This document shows, piece by piece, positions 2,452 through 13,602 of a stretch of DNA of 32,430 nt. The DNA lies in assembly GCA_023539395.1 (NCBI GenBank), contig JAKCEX010000011.1:1-32430 (forward strand), in the 5' to 3' direction. Position 1 is the first letter of the stretch; every line of letters begins with the position of its first letter. Origin of the DNA: Candidatus Geocrenenecus arthurdayi. Its GTDB lineage: Archaea > Thermoproteota > Nitrososphaeria_A > Caldarchaeales > Wolframiiraptoraceae. Both the position numbers and the translations under genes were made by a program. The notes under the pieces are model-generated. The model had not been told where the DNA came from. It saw only the letters and a program-made list of their open reading frames with translations, and searched no databases.

Positions 2452-4005
2452 ATGGAGTTGAGGATTGAGCTAGAGGGATACTTTGAATTAACCATGGATG
2501 TAGGTAATTTAGCATCCCAGATATCTGAGTTGGTTAGAGAAGCTAATGAAAAGTTTAGGGAGAGTGTTCAGGGGAGGGAAGCTTCTGAAGCAGCAGTAAT
2601 CGTAGAGTATAGTGGAGAAGGAAGGAGATTAAAAGTTAGGATAATTTCTGGAGGTAGGCTTAGAGCACATGATGCATTCCTTAGGTTTAAGAATATATTG
2701 GTAGAGAAGCTTGGACCATCAATGAAGGTTGGTGTAAGAGAGATATTCGTAGACAAGCTTACAGTCAAGGTTGCTGGAGAACATGTAAGCTTACCAATTG
2801 CAGAGGAGAAGCTTAAAGGCGTTGCTGAAGTATCAACTGAAGATGATACATTAGTTTTAATCTTTAGAAATCTATCCGACCACGATATACGTGATAGAGT
2901 AGTAGACCGAGCTATAAGATTAGTGAGAATTGAAGAGAAATCCATAGAGGAAGCTGAGAAACTTGCACCATTCGGCACAGTCTTAATAAGAGGTGTAGAG
3001 AAGCCATTTACGTTTAGTGGCGAGATCTCCGCTGAAGCCGAGAGGCTTAACTGGGCTAAACGTTACCCAGGTAGAGGTCAATGGATCTTCACAAGCCCTA
3101 TGACTGCACTACTTAGAACATTATCTGAGATGCTGATAGATTATGTTGCAAGACCTCTCGGTTTTCAAGAATGGATGTTTCCACGTTTAATGCCTTTCGA
3201 AGTATTCAAGAAACTTTCAACATACATAGAACATCTACCAGAAGGGTTATTCTACGTCTGTGCTCCACCTAGGGATCCCTCAGTTTTTGAAGAATTCAAG
3301 AGAGAATATACATTGAGGAGAGAGTTAAGAAGAGATTTACTAAAGAATGTTTTAGAAGAGCCTGGATATGTTTTAGAAGCTGTACAGTGCCCACCATTCT
3401 ATCAATATTTCTCAGGAGAGATAGTTAGGCTGGAAGACCTACCCATCAAGGTTTTCGATGTTCTAGGTGGATGGACTTGGAGGAATGAAGCTGGAGGGGT
3501 TGAAGGTATTGTTAGAACAAATGAGTTCTGGAGGATGGAGATGGTCTTCTTAGCAAGCCCAGAAGAAGTAGTTGAGATAAGAAATAAAGTAGTAGAAAAA
3601 TCATTAGAATTAGTTGATAAGATTCTAGATATGGAGTGGAGGCTAGTAGCTGGAGCACCCTTCTTCCTATCTCCTGAGGAAGCTTCTAAACGCCTCATAG
3701 ATGTATCCAGCTTTGATAAGATACCTACACTCGATATAGAAGTCTATCTACCTTACAGGGGGGAGAGAGATAAAGCTGAGTGGCTTGAGATAACAGCTGC
3801 AACAGTTCATAGAGACTATTATGTTAAAGCATTCAAGATAAGAGAAGCAAAGAATAGAGAGATATGGACTGGATGTGTAGGTCATGGATTAACAAGGTGG
3901 GCTGCAGGCTTCCTAGCTAGACATGGCTTCAATTTTGAAGATTGGCCTAAAGAAGTAAAGGATAGAATAAGAGAGCTACCGCAACCGCCGAGGACAGTTA
4001 CCTAG
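2452..4005 (+). CDS. serS: Seryl-tRNA synthetase, type 2 (methanogen-type)
   Basis: 517 aa; PGRGQWIFTSPMTALLR, EAVQCPPFYQYFSGE, RTNEFWRMEMVFLASPEE, GCVGHGLTRWAAGFLARHGF; candidate zinc ligands Cys/Glu/Cys as in the methanogenic-type class. Confidence 0.8.
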   Translation: MELRIELEGYFELTMDVGNLASQISELVREANEKFRESVQGREASEAAVIVEYSGEGRRLKVRIISGGRLRAHDAFLRFKNILVEKLGPSMKVGVREIFVDKLTVKVAGEHVSLPIAEEKLKGVAEVSTEDDTLVLIFRNLSDHDIRDRVVDRAIRLVRIEEKSIEEAEKLAPFGTVLIRGVEKPFTFSGEISAEAERLNWAKRYPGRGQWIFTSPMTALLRTLSEMLIDYVARPLGFQEWMFPRLMPFEVFKKLSTYIEHLPEGLFYVCAPPRDPSVFEEFKREYTLRRELRRDLLKNVLEEPGYVLEAVQCPPFYQYFSGEIVRLEDLPIKVFDVLGGWTWRNEAGGVEGIVRTNEFWRMEMVFLASPEEVVEIRNKVVEKSLELVDKILDMEWRLVAGAPFFLSPEEASKRLIDVSSFDKIPTLDIEVYLPYRGERDKAEWLEITAATVHRDYYVKAFKIREAKNREIWTGCVGHGLTRWAAGFLARHGFNFEDWPKEVKDRIRELPQPPRTVT

Positions 4006-4091
4006 CTCTATTACTCAATATTGTTTTATCTTGAAGTACCTGCTAGTTGAACGTTATAGTTATAGGAGAGCTAACCATAATATATTGAGAA

Positions 4092-5042
4092 TTGAAGCTC
4101 TCAATTAGAGGGATATATTCTACAGCTCTTGCTAAGCTATTGATAGATAAAGGATTTAAGATCGTTAAACCTACTAAGTCTCAGATTGAAAGATTCGGGT
4201 TAACAAATCTAGTCGTAGAGCCTGATGCAGTAATTACAGATTCACCTGATAGACACTTCATAGAAGTGAGGGGAGCTCTAGAAGTTGTTACCCCTCTAGT
4301 ATGTGAGATAAGGAATTTCTTCGAAGACTTGATTATCTTGTGGAGAATGAAAGATATGAATAATTCATATGTTAGAGTAGGTTTCCCAGTTGAGGCTATG
4401 AAGAAGCTTGACGAATTAAGGTCTATGGTAACGTATACTGTTCCATGGCATCATTATTGTAGAGCAGGCGGGGAAGCACTTTCAAGTATGGTTAGTTTTG
4501 CTGAAGACCTAGTTGAGAGAGGGCTTGTTTCCCCAGAAGAAATGAACAAGATGTTTGAAGAACAAGTCAGACAGTTCACTCCAAAACTGGGTTCCAAGGT
4601 TAGGATAGTTCACGTAAAACTTCACGGTGGAAGGATTATCCTGGGACCAGGTAAAGTCGTCTGGAGGAGTAATGAAACTATTAAAGTTCTTAGGAGGATT
4701 ATGAGCTCTGGCATATATGATGGACTAGGTATACCGAAGCAAGTTGGAGATTATGCTGTTACAGAAGCTAGAAAACTAGAGATGTGGACTAAGACAAGCT
4801 ATTACAGCTTCTCAGGAAATTTTAAAGGTGCATACTATAATATCTGCACACCCGTTGCATTCTATCCCGATCAGATACATTACTTCGACTTAGAAGTAGA
4901 CGTAGTCTATCTCCCAAATCTTGAAGTTAAAATAATTGATAGAGAGCTTCTTGAACAAGCACTTAATGAAGAGATCATAAGTAGTAAGCTTTTTGAGAAA
5001 GCATTAAGACAAGCTGAGAAAATCTCCTATGAAAGACCTTAA
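4092..5042 (+). CDS. FAU-1/AU-1-like RNA-binding protein or ribonuclease (DUF402 region), short form; TTG start
   Basis: 316 aa; N-terminal LSIRGIYSTALAKLLIDKGFKIVKPTKSQIERF and C-terminal PWHHYCRAGGEALSSMVSFAEDLVERG...YYDLEVDVV-type DUF402 pattern. Confidence 0.75.
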   Translation: MKLSIRGIYSTALAKLLIDKGFKIVKPTKSQIERFGLTNLVVEPDAVITDSPDRHFIEVRGALEVVTPLVCEIRNFFEDLIILWRMKDMNNSYVRVGFPVEAMKKLDELRSMVTYTVPWHHYCRAGGEALSSMVSFAEDLVERGLVSPEEMNKMFEEQVRQFTPKLGSKVRIVHVKLHGGRIILGPGKVVWRSNETIKVLRRIMSSGIYDGLGIPKQVGDYAVTEARKLEMWTKTSYYSFSGNFKGAYYNICTPVAFYPDQIHYFDLEVDVVYLPNLEVKIIDRELLEQALNEEIISSKLFEKALRQAEKISYERP

Positions 5043-5692
5043 ATTTTCTTCTGCTTGATTAACGCGATTATCCATGGTTGTTTGAGATTTAGGAATAGTC
5101 CTTGTTTAGAAAGATTCTTTACGAGGAATATTGATGGGAACAAGCTTAATGCTACATGTAATACATTGTAGACTGCGGTGAAGGCTAAGACTAGGATTAA
5201 GCCTCCTAACCCAGCTTCCATCTCTAAGCCTAGAGTTATCGATAGAGATTTTACAGCAAATTCTAGGAAGAAGGGTGCAATGACTACTAAGACTAGGTAG
5301 TTGGAGACGGTTGTAGCTAGAACTCTCAGCAGGCTACCGAATATGAATACTGAGATGTACGGTATCCTAAATCTTAAAGCTAGCTTATAGCTTACCCATA
5401 AACCTAATAGCATAGAAGCTACTGCAATAAACTTCATCGCTGGACCGATAGGCGTCCACTCCCCGAATACATTGAGAACAAGCCAGTAAGTCAGTGCAGA
5501 GATAAATCCAGGTACTGGACCGAAACCTAAGAAAGCTGTAACCACGGGTAGCTCAGCTATATCGAACTTTAAATAGGGTATTAAGGGAAAAGAGAAGCTG
5601 AAAGGCATCATTGCTAGGACTGCTGAAAAAGCTCCGAAAACTGTTGAAATAGATATTACTAGGGATATTCTAGCCTCGGAATTTCTAGGCAC
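5039..5692 (-). CDS. ECF transporter S component-like membrane protein (paralog of 11020..11628)
   Basis: 217 aa hydrophobic protein; FSFPLIPYLKFDIAELPVVTAFLGFGPVPGFISALTYWLVLN and IGPAMKFIAVASMLLG resemble ECF S components. Confidence 0.7.
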   Translation of the reverse strand: MPRNSEARISLVISISTVFGAFSAVLAMMPFSFSFPLIPYLKFDIAELPVVTAFLGFGPVPGFISALTYWLVLNVFGEWTPIGPAMKFIAVASMLLGLWVSYKLALRFRIPYISVFIFGSLLRVLATTVSNYLVLVVIAPFFLEFAVKSLSITLGLEMEAGLGGLILVLAFTAVYNVLHVALSLFPSIFLVKNLSKQGLFLNLKQPWIIALIKQKKI

Positions 5693-5764
5693 GTATATAA
5701 GCTGGCTCTACTATTACTTAAACCTGAGTATCTACAAAAAAATGAGTAGGATTATAAGTTTATA

Positions 5765-6610
5765 TCATGATAGTAAACCGTTGAAGAAGTCTTTAACAGC
5801 TTTCTCATAATCTGATTGGTCGCCTACATCAATCCAGTAGCCATTATGGAGGTAAGCATATAGTTTATTCTGGTCTGCGAGCTCCGGGAATACATCTTCT
5901 TCTAGAGATGAAGGTCTATCAGATGGTATGTAATCGAATATTGCAGGTTCAAATACATATATTCCAGCATTAACGAATCCTGGAACAGCTTGTCTAGGCT
6001 TCTCTCTAAATGCTATAACCCTTCCTTCTTCATCTACTGAGACTAACCCGAATCTTCTCGCATCCTCAACTCTCGTTAAAACAATTGTTGCAACACCATT
6101 CTTCTCTCTATGATACCTGATTAAGCTGGATATATCTAACCCAGTAAATATTATGTCTCCATTAACAGTTAAGAATGTACTATCCAATTTCCTTTCAGCA
6201 TTCTTTACCGCACCCGCTGTTCCAAGGGGAGTTTTCTCAATAGAGTAATCTATTGATACACCTAAAAGCCTACCATCTCCAAAATATTTTATTAAATGTT
6301 CACCTAGGTATCCTATTGCTAATATGAAGTTGTAGATTCCCTGCTTCTTCAAGTATGTAATGATATGCTCAGTTATTGGCTTGTAGCCTATGGGTATCAT
6401 CGGTTTAGGTATACTGTATGTGAGAGGCGTTAAACCCGTACCTCTACCACCACATAAGATAACACATTTTAATGATTCTTTCATCAACTTCTCTCTAACT
6501 GCTTCAATAATGAATGAGCTCCTCTTCCTAGCGGGTACATGCTTCTTTAATGCATCCCAAACCTCAATAGGAAACTCTATACTCGTTCTATGCTTAGACA
6601 TCATGCACAC
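5765..6610 (-). CDS. Ribbon-helix-helix domain fused to sugar-1-phosphate nucleotidyltransferase domain (noncanonical GTGL signature)
   Basis: N-terminal RTSIEFPIEVWDALKKHVPARKRSSFIIEAVREKL (RHH-like) followed by LKCVILCGGRGTGLTPLTYSIPKPMIPI...VNGDIIF...EKP...VNAGIYVFEP...SLEEDVFP...WIDVGDQSDY. Likely start MSKHRTS (6601). Confidence 0.85.
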   Translation of the reverse strand: MCMMSKHRTSIEFPIEVWDALKKHVPARKRSSFIIEAVREKLMKESLKCVILCGGRGTGLTPLTYSIPKPMIPIGYKPITEHIITYLKKQGIYNFILAIGYLGEHLIKYFGDGRLLGVSIDYSIEKTPLGTAGAVKNAERKLDSTFLTVNGDIIFTGLDISSLIRYHREKNGVATIVLTRVEDARRFGLVSVDEEGRVIAFREKPRQAVPGFVNAGIYVFEPAIFDYIPSDRPSSLEEDVFPELADQNKLYAYLHNGYWIDVGDQSDYEKAVKDFFNGLLS

Positions 6611-6710
6611 CTTAATTAAAAAATTGTATGTGTATATAATAAATATTTTTATGGTCCTATTTTCTAAGAGAGCTAGTCTCCAAACTATTTTAATACTGTT
6701 TAGAGTAGCT

Positions 6711-6726
6711 TTCCCCTTATGGGGAA
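6711..6726. repeat. Short perfect hairpin TTCCCC-TTAT-GGGGAA in the non-coding region
   Basis: Read directly: ttccccttatggggaa. Confidence 0.6.
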
Positions 6727-6965
6727 GTCTAATAACCCACCCCCTTAACCTCTCACAGCCCAGAGATACTTATCTTCGTAGCCTCCTCCACGCTTGGTCA
6801 TCCCCGTCCAAACACTAGCCTCCTACTCATCCCTACTCTCAGCCATATCATTCCTTAAAATAAAACAACATACCACTCTCTAGGAAGATAAAACAGAGTA
6901 AAACCCATGTCCACACAACCCCAACTCAGACACCACCAAGCCATAACAAAAATTTAGGGAGAGTG

Positions 6966-7079
6966 GCTGGCCGATGAGCCATAGTAGCTGTGGCTTGCGG
7001 GGAACATACATATAACCCTATTATTAGGAGTCTAAGCATAACCCTACCAGCTGACAGCTTTTACTACTCATCGGCCAGC
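6966..7079. repeat. 114-bp element bounded by a perfect 13-bp inverted repeat (GCTGGCCGATGAG / CTCATCGGCCAGC); candidate structured RNA or MITE-like element
   Basis: Arms 6966-6978 and 7067-7079 are exact reverse complements; internal hairpins GCCATA-GTAGC-TGTGGC, CCTA-TTAT-TAGG and AGCT-GAC-AGCT. Confidence 0.65.
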
Positions 7080-7176
7080 AGGGTTTGTCGTTAGGAGATA
7101 TGCTATCCTCAAAGACTTCAAAATCATCAATTGTATTCTGTAGATCGCTCGCTCTTTTGGTAGACGAATAGAGTAA

Positions 7177-7863
7177 GTATCTCTATATGTTAAACTTCTC
7201 TCTGAGCGTACTAGAATACTTGAATCTAAACCTTATGTGAAATGTGTTATTCCATTTAAGAATAAAGGCTCAATTATAGGTGTCTCATTAACCCACCCCC
7301 ATAGCCAGATCTATGCTCTACCATTCATTCCTCCTAGAATAATGAAGGAAATAGAGTCCGCTCAAAGATATAGAGATGAATATGATGGAAACTTATTTGA
7401 AGACATTTTGAGAAATGAATTGGAAGAAGGTACAAGAATTATCTATGGAAATAAGTCTTTCATGCTTTTCTTACCTTTCTTCGTTATGTGGCCCTATGAG
7501 GTACACGTCTATCCCAGGAGAAGTATAAAATCATTGAATCAACTAGATCAAGAAGATGCGTTAATGCTTGCAGATGTAATTAGAGTGGCTGTTGCGGTGT
7601 ATGAAGAGATGTTTGGAGAAGATTGTGCGTACATGATGGTTTTCCATCAATCACCAGTAGGTGAATACGATGATTATAGATTACACATTGAATTCTACAC
7701 TCCATATATCTCAAGGGATAGGATTAAGTATGCTGCAGGAATAGAATGGGGTGCATGGATCTTTACATATGATGGTGTACCAGAAGAAAGAGTGAAAGAG
7801 CTTAAACAAGCTACATGGAAAATTATGAAGAATTTAGACCATCTAGGAGAAGCTTTTACATAA
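7177..7863 (+). pseudogene. galT: N-terminally truncated galactose-1-phosphate uridylyltransferase (GalT); ORF track CDS is 7237..7863
   Basis: HPHSQIYALPFIPPRI (HxH active site), FFVMWPYEVHVYPRRSIKSL, HQSPVGEYDDYRLHIEFYTPYISRDRIKYAAGIEWGAWIF. Homology-like residues SERTRILESKPY are encoded upstream of the GTG start, back to TAA at 7174-7176. The N-terminal half is absent. Confidence 0.75.
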
Positions 7864-7963
7864 TCCTAGGCAAGTTATACTTGTCTAGAGCATATAGATG
7901 CATAATTACAAAATAACAAGTTTATCTATCATGTTTAAATTATAATTCCATCTTGAAGAAAAT

Positions 7964-8473
7964 ATGAAACGGCGTAATCTCCTCATAACTATTTTTGCAG
8001 TTGCAGGAGGTGCTATAACAGCATTCTTTACATGGTTCACTCAGCCTAGTATAAGAGGTCAAACTCCTACTCATACTGAGACGTTGACCCAGCCTAGATA
8101 TCAAAAGAAAAAGATTCTGAATATCTCTGAGCTTAAACCAGGATCGTATATTGTATTTAATTGGCCTACTGAGACTGAACGATATCATGTAAATATTTTG
8201 ATCAGAGGAAAAGAAGGAAAAGGTATGGGTCGGAGAGCCGATCTATACGCATATAACCTAGTCTGCACTCATCTACAATGCCAGGTTAAGTATGATGAAA
8301 ACACAGACATGCTAGTATGTCCATGCCACGGAAGTATTTTCGACCCTAGTAATGATGCAAATGTAGTTAAAGGACCAGCTGCAAAGCCTCTAGCGAAGAT
8401 CTTGGTAGAAGAGGATGATAAAGGAGACATATATGCTGTAGACATGATCGGGGAGCCAGGTCAAGGAAGATAA
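7964..8473 (+). CDS. Rieske [2Fe-2S] protein with N-terminal membrane or Tat-like anchor
   Basis: CTHLQC ... CPCHGSIFDP Rieske motifs; N-terminal KRRNLLITIFAVAGGAITAFFTW. Confidence 0.9.
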   Translation: MKRRNLLITIFAVAGGAITAFFTWFTQPSIRGQTPTHTETLTQPRYQKKKILNISELKPGSYIVFNWPTETERYHVNILIRGKEGKGMGRRADLYAYNLVCTHLQCQVKYDENTDMLVCPCHGSIFDPSNDANVVKGPAAKPLAKILVEEDDKGDIYAVDMIGEPGQGR

Positions 8474-8603
8474 TAATATTACAGTATACGTTTATATCAG
8501 ACATGCTTAAATACACCTATGTCCTTGATTAAGTTTATAATGATATTTAAAATTTGTCTATGCATAAAACTAAAAAGATAGCTTCTACTATTTTTGTTTG
8601 AAC

Positions 8604-9626
8604 ATGGTTCTGAAAGTTGGAATTAATGGAATGGGTAGGATTGGTAGATTGTTTCTAAGAGCTGCATTGGAAGACCCAGGGTATGGTAAGAATTTCGAGG
8701 TTGTAGCTTTCAATGAGCTTGCAGATACGAAGACTACTGCACTACTCTTAAAGTATGATTCAGTTCATCGAAGATGGAATAGAGATGTATCATATACAGA
8801 TAGAAGTGTTATAGTAGATGGAAGAGAGTTTAAAGCTTACAGTATACGTGATCCATCTCAAATACCTTGGAAAGAAGAAGGGGTTGAACTAGTTGTAGAA
8901 GCAACTGGAGTGTTTACGAGCAAAGCAGATGCTTCAAAACATATTAGAGACACTGTTAAGAAAGTTCTAGTTACAGCTCCATGTAAAGACGCAGATGTCA
9001 CGATAGCTCCAGGTGTAAATGATCACATGCTAGACTTATCTAAGCATGATGTTATCTCTGGGGCCTCATGTACAACAAACTGTCTTGCACCAATGGTTAA
9101 AGTACTCTTAGACAACTTTGGAATAAAGAAGGGGTTCATGATAACTATTCATGCTTATACGAATGACCAGAGGCTTCTAGACCTAGTACATAGAGATTTA
9201 AGAAGAGCTAGAGCTGCATCTCTATCAATAATACCTACAACTACTGGAGCTGCATCTGCTCTACACTTAGTAATCCCTGAAGTAAAAGGGAAGATGGATG
9301 GGATAGCCCTTAGAGTACCTGTCCCAGATGGCTCAGTTACAGATTTAACAGCTATACTTGAGAGAGAAGCAACAGTAGATGAAGTTAGGAGAGCATATAA
9401 AACAGCGGCTGAAGGTAAGATGAAGAAGATACTAGAGTATACAGAAGACCCGATTGTCTCAGCAGATGTAATAGGTAATCCACATTCATGTATTATTGAT
9501 GGATTGAGCATAATGACTATCGGAGAGAGAAGCGATATAGTAAAAGTTCTCGGATGGTATGATAATGAGTGGGGGTATAGCTGCAGACTCGTTGACATAG
9601 TAAACATGATTGCAGAGAAGCTCTGA
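8604..9626 (+). CDS. gap: Glyceraldehyde-3-phosphate dehydrogenase, bacterial (class I) type
   Basis: VGINGMGRIGR, GASCTTNCLAP, DLRRARAASLSIIPTTTGAA, GWYDNEWGYSCRLVD: class I GAPDH signatures. ATG at 8604 preferred over TTG at 8598. Confidence 0.95.
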   Translation: MVLKVGINGMGRIGRLFLRAALEDPGYGKNFEVVAFNELADTKTTALLLKYDSVHRRWNRDVSYTDRSVIVDGREFKAYSIRDPSQIPWKEEGVELVVEATGVFTSKADASKHIRDTVKKVLVTAPCKDADVTIAPGVNDHMLDLSKHDVISGASCTTNCLAPMVKVLLDNFGIKKGFMITIHAYTNDQRLLDLVHRDLRRARAASLSIIPTTTGAASALHLVIPEVKGKMDGIALRVPVPDGSVTDLTAILEREATVDEVRRAYKTAAEGKMKKILEYTEDPIVSADVIGNPHSCIIDGLSIMTIGERSDIVKVLGWYDNEWGYSCRLVDIVNMIAEKL

Positions 9627-9725
9627 ATACATCAATTTAATGAGTGGTTCCTCAAATTATTTTTTAAGATTCAAATCTTAATAGATACTTCAAGTAATGT
9701 TTCATGATGATTGGGGTTGGATAAG

Positions 9726-10949
9726 ATGTGGTTTAAGACTTTAGATGATGTAGATGTTTCAGGTAAAACTGTTATCGTAAGGGTTGACTTAAACTCGCCT
9801 ATAGATCCCGAGACTGGGAAGATTAGAGATAATGAGAGGCTTAGAGCTCATGCTGAAACGATACGGGAATTATCTGAGAAGAATGCTAAAATTGTTCTCC
9901 TAGCACATCAAGGAAGAAAGGGGGATCCAGACTTTCTTCCACTGAAAGACCATGCTGAACTCCTATCAAGACATGTTGGTAGGCAAGTTAAGTATGTGCC
10001 AGACTTAATAGGAGAAGAAGCAGTAAAAGCAGTAAAATCATTAAAGAATAGTGAGATACTCCTTCTTGAAAATGTTAGAATACTTGATGAAGAAACGAAG
10101 GAAGCCTCTCCTGAAGAGCACTCCCGTGGGAAGCTAGTATCTACTCTTGCACCTTTAGCAGATATATTCATATTAGATGCATTCTCTGTAGCTCATAGAG
10201 CACATGCATCTGTTGTAGGATTTTCACATGTACTACCTACAGTAGCTGGAAGGATAATGGAGAGAGAGCTTAGAGCTTTAACAACTGTTCTTGAAGAGGA
10301 TAGAAAGATAATTCTAGTTATGGGTGGAAATAAGCCTGAGGAATGCATCGAAGTCATAAATGGAATAATGTCTAAAAACATTGAAAACATTAAGTATGTT
10401 TTATCTGCTGGAATACTTGGACAATTATTCTTGATGACTGAGAAGAGGAATCTTGGAGAACCCTCCGAATCATATATTAAAAAGAAGAAATTTGATACGT
10501 ACCTAGAACGCCTAGCTGGGATACGTGAAGCCTTAGGAGAAAAATTAAAAACACCGTTAGATGTAGCCTATGAGGAAAATGGTAGGAGAGTAGAGATAGA
10601 TGTAGAGAAGCTTCCCGCACCTGGAACAATATATGATATAGGAGAAAAGACAGCCAAGAAATATGCTGAGCTAATCCTAGATACTTCAGAGAAAGATGTA
10701 ATAATAGTTAAGGGTCCAGCTGGAGCATATGAGAGAGAAGAATTTAGGAGGGGAACTAAGATAATATATGAGGCATTAGCAAGATGTAGAGCATTCACAT
10801 TGATAGGTGGAGGAGATTCTTCGACAGCTATAGAGCTTGTCGGTTTAAGCCCAGCTAACTTTTCCTACGTAAGCCTTGGTGGAGGAGCTTTAATCACATA
10901 CATCTCGAAGAAGACTCTTCCTGGAGTAGAGATACTAAGGAAAAAATAG
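9726..10949 (+). CDS. pgk: Phosphoglycerate kinase (archaeal type)
   Basis: VRVDLNSPIDPETGKI, LLENVRILDEE, DAFSVAHRAHASVVGF, GGGDSSTAIE. ATG at 9726 preferred over TTG at 9711. Confidence 0.93.
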   Translation: MWFKTLDDVDVSGKTVIVRVDLNSPIDPETGKIRDNERLRAHAETIRELSEKNAKIVLLAHQGRKGDPDFLPLKDHAELLSRHVGRQVKYVPDLIGEEAVKAVKSLKNSEILLLENVRILDEETKEASPEEHSRGKLVSTLAPLADIFILDAFSVAHRAHASVVGFSHVLPTVAGRIMERELRALTTVLEEDRKIILVMGGNKPEECIEVINGIMSKNIENIKYVLSAGILGQLFLMTEKRNLGEPSESYIKKKKFDTYLERLAGIREALGEKLKTPLDVAYEENGRRVEIDVEKLPAPGTIYDIGEKTAKKYAELILDTSEKDVIIVKGPAGAYEREEFRRGTKIIYEALARCRAFTLIGGGDSSTAIELVGLSPANFSYVSLGGGALITYISKKTLPGVEILRKK

Positions 10950-11019
10950 TAGATAGGATAACAGATTTATTTCTCAATTTTTACATGATAGAATCTCAGC
11001 TGACCATTAATCTCTAATC

Positions 11020-11628
11020 TTATCTTACTATTCTTCTGTAGAGAGCATATACTGATGCTGCTGGAAGAAGGGATAAGGGGACGTGTAGGAGATTGAAGAA
11101 AGCTGTAAGAATTACTGTTATTAATGCTACTAGGAAGCTTGATTCTACTTCTAGCCCTAGAACATTCTTTAATACTTGCGTAGATGTTGGAAGATAGACT
11201 TCGGGAAAGAATACATAGTATAGGAGGAAGGTTACCAGAGACATTAATCCTACTCTTACCAGGCTTCCAGAAATAATCATGTATAATAGGTTTCTTCTAT
11301 CCAAGGTTACTTTAGATTTATTAAATACTATCCTGAAACCTATCAGCATAGAGATAACTGCAGTTAACTTCATTAATGGACCTATTAGAACATGGTATGG
11401 TTTACCGAAATTCAGTGTTAACCAATGGATTACAGCTACAATGAAAGCTGACTTAAAATCGAATACTAAGAGTGCAAGAACAGTGGGTATCTCTGCGAGG
11501 TCAAAACTAAGGAATGGTAGAAGAGGGTAGGGGAATCTAAAGCGGAGTAGAGATATAACTATTGCTGTTGAAGCTAGAAGAGATGTTCCAGCAACCCATC
11601 TACTAACCCTGACTTGTAACGTCTGCAT
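11020..11628 (-). CDS. ECF transporter S component-like membrane protein (paralog of 5039..5692)
   Basis: 202 aa hydrophobic; FRFPYPLLPFLSFDLAEIPTVLALL, IGPLMKLTAVISMLIG. Confidence 0.7.
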   Translation of the reverse strand: MQTLQVRVSRWVAGTSLLASTAIVISLLRFRFPYPLLPFLSFDLAEIPTVLALLVFDFKSAFIVAVIHWLTLNFGKPYHVLIGPLMKLTAVISMLIGFRIVFNKSKVTLDRRNLLYMIISGSLVRVGLMSLVTFLLYYVFFPEVYLPTSTQVLKNVLGLEVESSFLVALITVILTAFFNLLHVPLSLLPAASVYALYRRIVR

Positions 11629-11700
11629 TAACCTTAAAGAATTCAGATGCTTATATAAACATGATCTTGATTGGAGAGGATTTATTTTCGGGGTTTTATA

Positions 11701-13602
11701 CTAGGATATTCTTGAAAGGACTTCTCTTAATGGTGCTCTCGCTGCACACACGTATGTGTCTGCTCCACCATAGTAGAGGTAAACTATACCATTTTTAACT
11801 ACTGCACCACATGGAAATACTACATTCTTTACGTATCCTTCCTTCTCATAGTATTCTACTGGTTCTAGAAGTGGGTGAAGCGTTCTACCGATGACCTTCT
11901 CAGGATTCTCTAAGTCTAGTAGGAAAGCTCCAACTCTATAGACATTATCATGTGAGAGACCATGATAGAAGACTAGCCAGCCTTGAGATGTCTTGATAGG
12001 TGGAGCTGCTAAACCAATCTTCTTTCCATCCCACATACCCTGCCTAGGAGCCAGCAGAGTTATGCTTAGTAGCTCACTCGTATTAACTGATTCTAGAGAT
12101 TCAATATAATCATAGCATATATTTATTCCTCCTGCTCTATGAATAAACAGATATTTACCATTTATCTTCTCTGGGATTACACATGCATTCTTATCATCTA
12201 TATCTGGTGGAGATATTATCTTAGGAGTGGCCCACCTCCAATTCCTATTTAAGAAATCTTCTACGGTAATCCAGGTTACAGCAACCTTAGGGGGGTGAAC
12301 ATTATCATAAGCTGTATAAAACATGTATAATCTATCGTCTATCTTGACTATTCTTGGGTCTTCGCATCCCGAGTGCCCAGGCGTTAACTTCATCTCAAAT
12401 TTTTCACGTGGAACATATATTGGCTCATCTAATCTCTCAACTATATTAAATCCATCTTCTGTTACTGCTAAACCTATAGTTGAGGTTTTATCACTTGATA
12501 AAGCTCTATAGAGGATGTATATTTTTCCTTCAAGCTCTATTGCTGCTGGGTTAAATGTACTTACACTCTCCCAGTCATGTTCAGGTCTAGGTTTTATGAT
12601 AGGATTCCCAGAATATCTTTCAAAAACTCTATTCAATTCTCCATCCATGATTTTAATGATCTCATTAGTCTTTGCAGTTAATAAACAACATGTAGTATCT
12701 GCTGCACCATAATACAATCTTATAGTATCTCTCCCTCGGATAACAGATGTAGGGAAGACTACATTAGGTACGTTTCCATACTTCTCATAGAATTCTTCTG
12801 GAACCATGAATGGATAACTAGTCTTCTTAATGATTTTCCTTGGATCGTCTAAGTCTAGGAGTAGTGCTTCTACCCCGAAGATTCTATCTTCTATTCTAGG
12901 TGAGAAATAATTCTGTATATAGGAGTATATGAGAAGCCATCCATCGTTGAGCTTTATAGGTGGTGCTCCAACTTCAATATGGTCTAGCGGTGACCTTCTA
13001 GGATCAGGTGTAAGTACATAGTTCATGAATTCACGATACCATTCATTCATCTCGTATATCCATTGAGAAGGGTCATCGCTTAACTGTGCTATAGCAATGT
13101 ATGCTGGGGGTTTATCTGTATGGACCGTGAGGATTGCTGTTAATTTCTTATTGATTCTCTCGGGGAAGAGGGCCATAGCTTTAGCATTAAAAGAAGTTAC
13201 TAGATATTTTTCTTCAACTTGTTTTAAATCTCTACTTACTGCTACACCAACTCTAATTCCTTCAGCAGTTGGTGGAAGAGTAGATATAGCTGTATAGAAG
13301 ATATAATATCTACCCTCAAGATATGTTGCTCTAGGGTCTTCACATCCAAATATTTCCCAATCTTTCTCAGGTATAATGAACCTTCTACGTTCATAGAAGT
13401 GTACTCCATCCCTACTCTTAGCTATACCTATTGAGCTATAGCTTGAACCCTGCTTCTTCAATAAGTCAGAAGAAGAAACAGCACGATAAAGCATATAGTA
13501 GTATCCACCTTTCTTAATTACGGATGGGTTAAAGACTGCATAAGCTTCCCATGAATGTTCTCTTACAGGATACAGTATAGGATTACTACTACATCTCCTC
13601 AT
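11701..13602 (-). CDS. Tandem-domain GH130 protein (beta-mannoside phosphorylase-like, two GH130 domains)
   Basis: 633 aa. Domain 1 NPILYPVREHSWEAYAVFNPSV...GCEDPRATYLEGRYYIFYTA...YYGAADT; domain 2 NPIIKPRPEHDWESVSTFNPAA...GCEDPRIVKIDDRLYMFYTA...YYGGADTYVC. The same motif set occurs twice. Confidence 0.88.
   Translation of the reverse strand: MRRCSSNPILYPVREHSWEAYAVFNPSVIKKGGYYYMLYRAVSSSDLLKKQGSSYSSIGIAKSRDGVHFYERRRFIIPEKDWEIFGCEDPRATYLEGRYYIFYTAISTLPPTAEGIRVGVAVSRDLKQVEEKYLVTSFNAKAMALFPERINKKLTAILTVHTDKPPAYIAIAQLSDDPSQWIYEMNEWYREFMNYVLTPDPRRSPLDHIEVGAPPIKLNDGWLLIYSYIQNYFSPRIEDRIFGVEALLLDLDDPRKIIKKTSYPFMVPEEFYEKYGNVPNVVFPTSVIRGRDTIRLYYGAADTTCCLLTAKTNEIIKIMDGELNRVFERYSGNPIIKPRPEHDWESVSTFNPAAIELEGKIYILYRALSSDKTSTIGLAVTEDGFNIVERLDEPIYVPREKFEMKLTPGHSGCEDPRIVKIDDRLYMFYTAYDNVHPPKVAVTWITVEDFLNRNWRWATPKIISPPDIDDKNACVIPEKINGKYLFIHRAGGINICYDYIESLESVNTSELLSITLLAPRQGMWDGKKIGLAAPPIKTSQGWLVFYHGLSHDNVYRVGAFLLDLENPEKVIGRTLHPLLEPVEYYEKEGYVKNVVFPCGAVVKNGIVYLYYGGADTYVCAARAPLREVLSRIS

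Follow-up and report, generated by a model that had tools for sequence, protein, structure and literature searches.

Is a sugar nucleotidyltransferase that begins with an RHH-like domain, and that has lost the arginine anchoring its nucleotide phosphates, still an enzyme, or has it become the sensor of a transcription factor? The question is raised by one gene in a 32,430-nucleotide stretch of DNA from Candidatus Geocrenenecus arthurdayi (hereafter the window), for which the initial annotation had proposed a nucleotidyltransferase repurposed as the sensor of a DNA-binding protein. The open reading frame spanning 5765–6610 on the reverse strand was confirmed as real. The codon of the motif M-x-KHRTS is the first codon in all relatives, and the start of the gene is therefore likely at 6601, possibly at 6604, rather than at the GTG codon at 6610 that the annotated frame had implied. 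Read from 6601, the gene comprises 278 codons (5768–6601, −), followed by a stop codon at 5765–5767, and is intact in 16 genomes of the window's family (f1), a family of Caldarchaeales whose members are titled Geocrenenecus and placed by NCBI in Wolframiiraptoraceae. The RHH-like N-terminal domain (residues 1–43; 6473–6601, −) contains the strand segment HRTSIEFP and helices at residues 12–21 and 24–43, and is followed by a nucleotidyltransferase domain (residues 44–278; 5768–6472, −) that lacks the C-terminal left-handed β-helix present in many pyrophosphorylases. Within the family, dN/dS lies between 0.04 and 0.10 in both domains for those pairs that allowed a calculation, values indicating that the gene is under strong purifying selection and ruling out a decaying pseudogene. 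A search of the window against Rfam returned no match.

The identity of the nucleotidyltransferase domain is certain. The protein scores 166 bits against PF00483 (NTP_transferase), well above the cut-off of 21.2; its AlphaFold model has a mean pLDDT of 92.5, and a Foldseek search with the predicted structure matched GDP-mannose and glucose-1-phosphate pyrophosphorylases, with an E-value of 1e-26 to PDB entry 8x7s. To these enzymes (PDB 8x7s, 7x8j, 7d72) residues 44–278 are homologous in sequence and fold, with most motifs intact, the differences being the RHH N-terminus, the absent β-helix and the exchange of the signature arginine for glycine. The closest NCBIfam model, NF052502 (man1P_GTase), is matched at 216.8 bits, below its curated cut-off of 440; mannose-1-phosphate, named in the initial annotation, would be one candidate ligand. 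In the window protein the signature reads GGRGTGLTPLT (GGRGTGLTPL at 6422–6451, −), with Gly56 (GGT, 6434–6436) in the otherwise conserved position at which the PDB relatives shown align an arginine. This arginine, the phosphate anchor of the GGxGxR(L)xPL signature, is likewise glycine in 16/16 family members, which confirms the substitution first noticed in the window and rules out a sequencing error or a one-off change. In the GDP-mannose pyrophosphorylase of Leishmania, the equivalent residue is described as absolutely conserved and as the principal anchor of GTP's phosphate groups, while the lysine of the EKP motif touches the sugar phosphate and two aspartates hold the Mg ion (PMC9424295). 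The arginine is the only one of these residues lost in the window protein: the signature lysine (K66), D149 of the NGD motif (6155–6157, −; by homology the first Mg-binding aspartate, PMC9424295), K201 of EKP (5999–6001, −; the sugar-phosphate contact by homology, PMC9424295) and W256-I257-D258 (5828–5836, −; containing by homology the second Mg-binding aspartate, PMC9424295) are all retained, the last three motifs having been noted as intact at the outset. Residual activity of the window protein is thus possible, since Lys66, both aspartates and the EKP motif are in place.

How the arginine was lost becomes clearer from the distribution of the fusion, which the initial annotation had suggested seeking in other archaea, where it indeed occurs. 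Among 84,980 species genomes scanned, it was detected in close relatives and in one Heimdallarchaeon. Whole-genome searches, which covered Thermoproteota and Asgard archaea, recovered it from 16 of the 22 genomes of the window's family, among 398 Thermoproteota genomes from two that belong to family f20 and a single one from f39, and from three groups in 228 Asgard genomes: group I (Heimdall-type, 20 rows), group II (11 rows) and group III (2 rows). The signature arginine is missing in 30 of these 52 fusions; among the 99 unfused nucleotidyltransferases retrieved, it is kept in 98 and the signature lysine in all. Its replacements differ between lineages, being glycine in f1 (16/16), lysine and asparagine in f20 (2/2), serine or glycine in Asgard group II (11/11) and serine in a single group I protein (1/20). 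The other 19 group I fusions keep the arginine, and the EKP lysine is absent from the whole group; in group II the signature lysine has become alanine, and the EKP motif and the aspartate of WxD are also lost. In the fusions of genome G180 and of Asgard group III the active site is complete. At the group II loci L186, L187, L189, L192 and L195–L201 we observed that the arginine, the lysine, EKP and the second Mg-binding aspartate are all gone, and the dead domain there probably serves as a regulator.

On a maximum-likelihood tree of the nucleotidyltransferase domain, built with the trait columns excluded, the state of the arginine requires four changes, and a branch with 84/90 support has all fusions but those of Asgard III on the same side. 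The AU test rejected a single clade of all arginine-less proteins (p-AU 3e-34), ruling out one shared loss, and did not reject a single origin of all fusions (p-AU 0.385). By this phylogeny fused proteins are estimated to have lost the arginine on at least four separate occasions; the four changes and the AU results together make repeated loss of catalytic residues after fusion most likely.

These observations bear on an alternative in which the protein is a trigger enzyme, still making a sugar nucleotide, slowly or from another substrate, while its RHH domain represses its own and neighbouring genes. The precedent is trifunctional PutA, an enzyme with an N-terminal RHH domain that is an autogenous repressor of its own regulon (PMC5293562). 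The catalytic motifs other than the arginine are all intact in the window's family, and the full active sites of G180 and Asgard group III make an enzymatically active fusion plausibly ancestral. We nevertheless regard this alternative as unlikely for the window protein: the residue exchanged is the absolutely conserved anchor of the NTP phosphates described above (PMC9424295), it has been replaced throughout the family and separately in other lineages, and the same genome encodes at least two further nucleotidyltransferases with the signature arginine intact. The reading of the domain as a repurposed sensor, put forward in the initial annotation, remains the best one and is strengthened by what appears to be repeated, independent loss of the arginine.

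A sensor of this kind would act through the N-terminus, and single-sequence searches of Pfam, NCBIfam and the PDB with that segment gave only sub-threshold matches, the best curated Pfam model being RHH_4 (12.8 bits against a cut-off of 25, E 0.12), so that a profile comparison was needed. With hhalign, the family profile of the N-terminus matched PF01402-like RHH proteins of the same genome in register over 37 columns (E 2.4e-5), with a score reached by none of 200 column-shuffled controls. RHH domains dimerise via an intermolecular β ribbon. In the AlphaFold model residues 1–11 are extended, ahead of helices at 12–21 and 24–43, as would be expected of a single RHH chain, the ribbon forming only upon dimerisation. 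Foldseek on the N-terminus gave the RHH antitoxins TacA2 and ParD2 as the sole good geometric matches, with TM scores of 0.59–0.68 and E-values that are not significant. The strand positions carry invariant basic and polar residues, a feature shared, together with an N-terminal strand-helix-helix some 43 residues long, with CopG/MetJ/Arc regulators such as NikR and CopG; the known members of that superfamily have other effector domains or none, and we found none with a nucleotidyltransferase. Asgard group I and II fusions have an N-terminus homologous to that of the window protein (H-[KR]-x-[ST]-[IV]-E-F; hhalign E 1.5e-8). A different, CopG-like N-terminus, with weaker support, is found in f20, f39 and Asgard III: the f20/f39 segment (alignment A3) matched the RHH profile weakly, one of 200 shuffles scoring as high, and its few PDB matches include CopG, ArtA and NikR. 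Cumulatively, the profile match, the predicted extended-helix-helix layout and the TacA2/ParD2 geometry support the proposed RHH–nucleotidyltransferase fusion, though every Pfam cut-off was missed, and the N-terminus is likely an RHH domain predicted to bind DNA.

If the protein is a regulator, the conserved neighbourhood suggests its target. The gap gene, encoding a type I GAPDH (8604–9626, +), is head-to-head with the fusion gene in 13/16 family genomes; pgk (9711–10949, +) lies downstream of gap in the window, often adjoins gap in family genomes with the head-to-head arrangement, and is a candidate target together with it. In the window, the fusion gene is separated from gap by a Rieske gene and what is left of galT. 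In the sister genome G001 an intact galK-galE-galT cluster adjoins the fusion gene and gap is on another contig, and in G005 about 9 kb of unrelated genes have been inserted between fusion gene and gap (L114, about 3200–12300). The two f20 genomes are otherwise differently arranged, with gap, pgk and the fusion gene in that order, in one direction and with short gaps, which by its layout is probably one operon. The six family genomes without the fusion, all of genus g4, have gap, in the order pgk-gap in 4/4 looked at, and the adjacency of gap within the family is partly general synteny. Neighbours differ in the Asgard archaea, where gene names were read from the sequence by eye: an aminotransferase and rpl30e/nusA in group I and, where flanks were seen, a polyprenyl synthase and a GT2 glycosyltransferase in group II. 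The gap-pgk link is therefore, as far as gene order indicates, a feature of Thermoproteota, and the target is not universal. At the group I loci L203, L204 and L231–L235 the adjoining aminotransferase is HisC-like and mostly head-to-head with the fusion gene, which is usually followed by rpl30e/nusA.

A candidate operator accompanies this arrangement. The inverted repeat TACAT-N9-ATGTA lies 35–44 bp upstream of the fusion start in the family and occurs within two mismatches upstream of 13/16 genes, compared with a mean of 2.0 and a maximum of 7 in 300 dinucleotide shuffles, a conservation due in part to the promoter, because the repeat overlaps a TATA-like core. The window copy is degenerate, with three mismatches, and in G005 the repeat remained beside gap after the insertion. 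Across three genomes, TRCAT-N9-ATGTA was no commoner than its reversed control, which rules out a wide regulon and, since the repeat is not enriched genome-wide, suggests that any regulation by the fusion protein is local. Upstream of gap, CTATGCATAAAAC (8558–8570, +) is a weakly indicated candidate regulatory element, kept in genus members whether fusion gene and gap are adjacent or separated, and diverged in L111.

The targets originally proposed, the GH130 genes and the long palindromic intergenic region, were not supported. The stretch 6940–7100 contains a 12–13 bp inverted repeat (CTGGCCGATGAG...CTCATCGGCCAG) and has 12 matches in the genome, itself included, at 73–100% identity; it is a dispersed repeat, possibly mobile, which rules out an operator in that palindromic region, and it sits in a scar beside galT, a gene truncated at its 5' end here and intact in the sister genome. 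The GH130 intergenic region holds no candidate site. The galT gene of the window (7177–7863) lacks about 99 N-terminal residues, and the sister genome has an intact galK-galE-galT there (L110); because the cluster is intact in that genome, the comparison suggests that it is decaying in the genome of the window. In the same sister locus the Rieske-type gene is divided over two frames (L110, 1476–1961). The window region 11701–13602 encodes a 633-residue protein that resembles two tandem GH130 units in two matched stretches, and this gene adjoins a divergent single-unit GH130 gene.

A second alternative would leave DNA aside: the N-terminus may be the oligomerisation arm of a non-catalytic regulatory nucleotidyltransferase subunit that controls a paralogous enzyme. 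Such subunits are known (PMC3585822), the Pfam cut-offs for RHH domains were missed, and the helices would fit mere RHH-like dimerisation. We consider it decidedly unlikely in view of the match of its profile with genuine RHH proteins, the invariant basic and polar strand residues, the linkage of the gene to gap-pgk rather than to nucleotidyltransferase paralogues, and the inverted repeat that its own promoter carries in relatives. Very improbable is an ordinary active nucleotidyltransferase with a functionally replaced arginine and an N-terminal extension of no special role, for which the conserved Lys66, D149, K201 and D258 would speak, but which must contend with the lack of a conserved compensating basic residue in the f1 signature (R53 of g1 is P, L or F elsewhere), with the retention of the arginine in almost all unfused relatives (98/99), and with an N-terminal domain that is itself under strong purifying selection and common to the Asgard fusions (E 1.5e-8).

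We therefore return to the repurposed sensor, and lean towards a one-component archaeal regulator of its own gene and of gap-pgk, in which an RHH domain would bind DNA and a nucleotidyltransferase-derived domain, its useful turnover lost, would sense a phosphosugar, NDP-sugar or nucleotide. We infer for the fusion protein that it binds DNA and has lost catalysis, and likewise its kind of ligand and the direction of regulation; the proposed scheme would run as follows. The RHH dimer would bind the inverted repeat that covers the BRE/TATA region of its own gene and, at the shared promoter, would block or tune both divergent transcription units, the fusion gene and gap-pgk. The nucleotidyltransferase domain, deprived of the arginine anchoring the NTP phosphates and retaining the motifs for Mg, the sugar phosphate and the base pocket, would no longer turn over usefully; a phosphosugar, NDP-sugar or nucleotide in its pocket may then alter promoter occupancy by the dimer.

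This plan has known counterparts. CggR, the SorC-family repressor of gapA in Bacillus, likewise lies alongside gap and other triose-phosphate genes and likewise joins a DNA-binding domain to an effector domain derived from a sugar-phosphate enzyme, its NagB-derived domain sensing fructose-1,6-bisphosphate to control the gapA operon (PMC11229326). The HTH and NagB-like effector domain that characterise the CggR/SorC family are not those of the fusion protein, which has an RHH-like N-terminus and a nucleotidyltransferase fold, so that the two are analogous, not homologous. With PutA only the RHH-on-enzyme plan is shared: PutA is a proline-oxidising enzyme that stays active, whereas the fusion protein is a nucleotidyltransferase without a catalytic residue. 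The parallel with both is one of plan, not descent. The large subunit of plant ADP-glucose pyrophosphorylase and GMPPA also have nucleotidyltransferase domains that have lost catalysis and kept a ligand-responsive regulatory role, but what they control is a partner enzyme rather than transcription, and they are without a DNA-binding domain.

Enzyme-derived sensors on DNA-binding domains are thus already known from CggR and PutA; in the open-access full-text literature we found no description of an RHH domain joined to a sugar nucleotidyltransferase or mannose-1-phosphate guanylyltransferase. More tentatively, the fusions may form a deep family of one-component regulators that spans Thermoproteota and the Asgard archaea; in it an RHH-borne nucleotidyltransferase would have repeatedly decayed to a dead sensor, and its Caldarchaeales branch would regulate gap-pgk as a counterpart of CggR made of unrelated components. 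Active sites in the family range in a natural gradation from intact to wholly dead, and the transition from enzyme to sensor can therefore be traced in it residue by residue. The Wolframiiraptoraceae genome of W. gerlachensis encodes both a predicted route through a tungsten GAPOR and GAPDH/PGK (PMC9246946), and a gap-pgk regulator, if true, would bear on when the GAPOR or the GAPDH/PGK route runs in these organisms; in the Asgard archaea the fusions constitute a candidate class of regulators.
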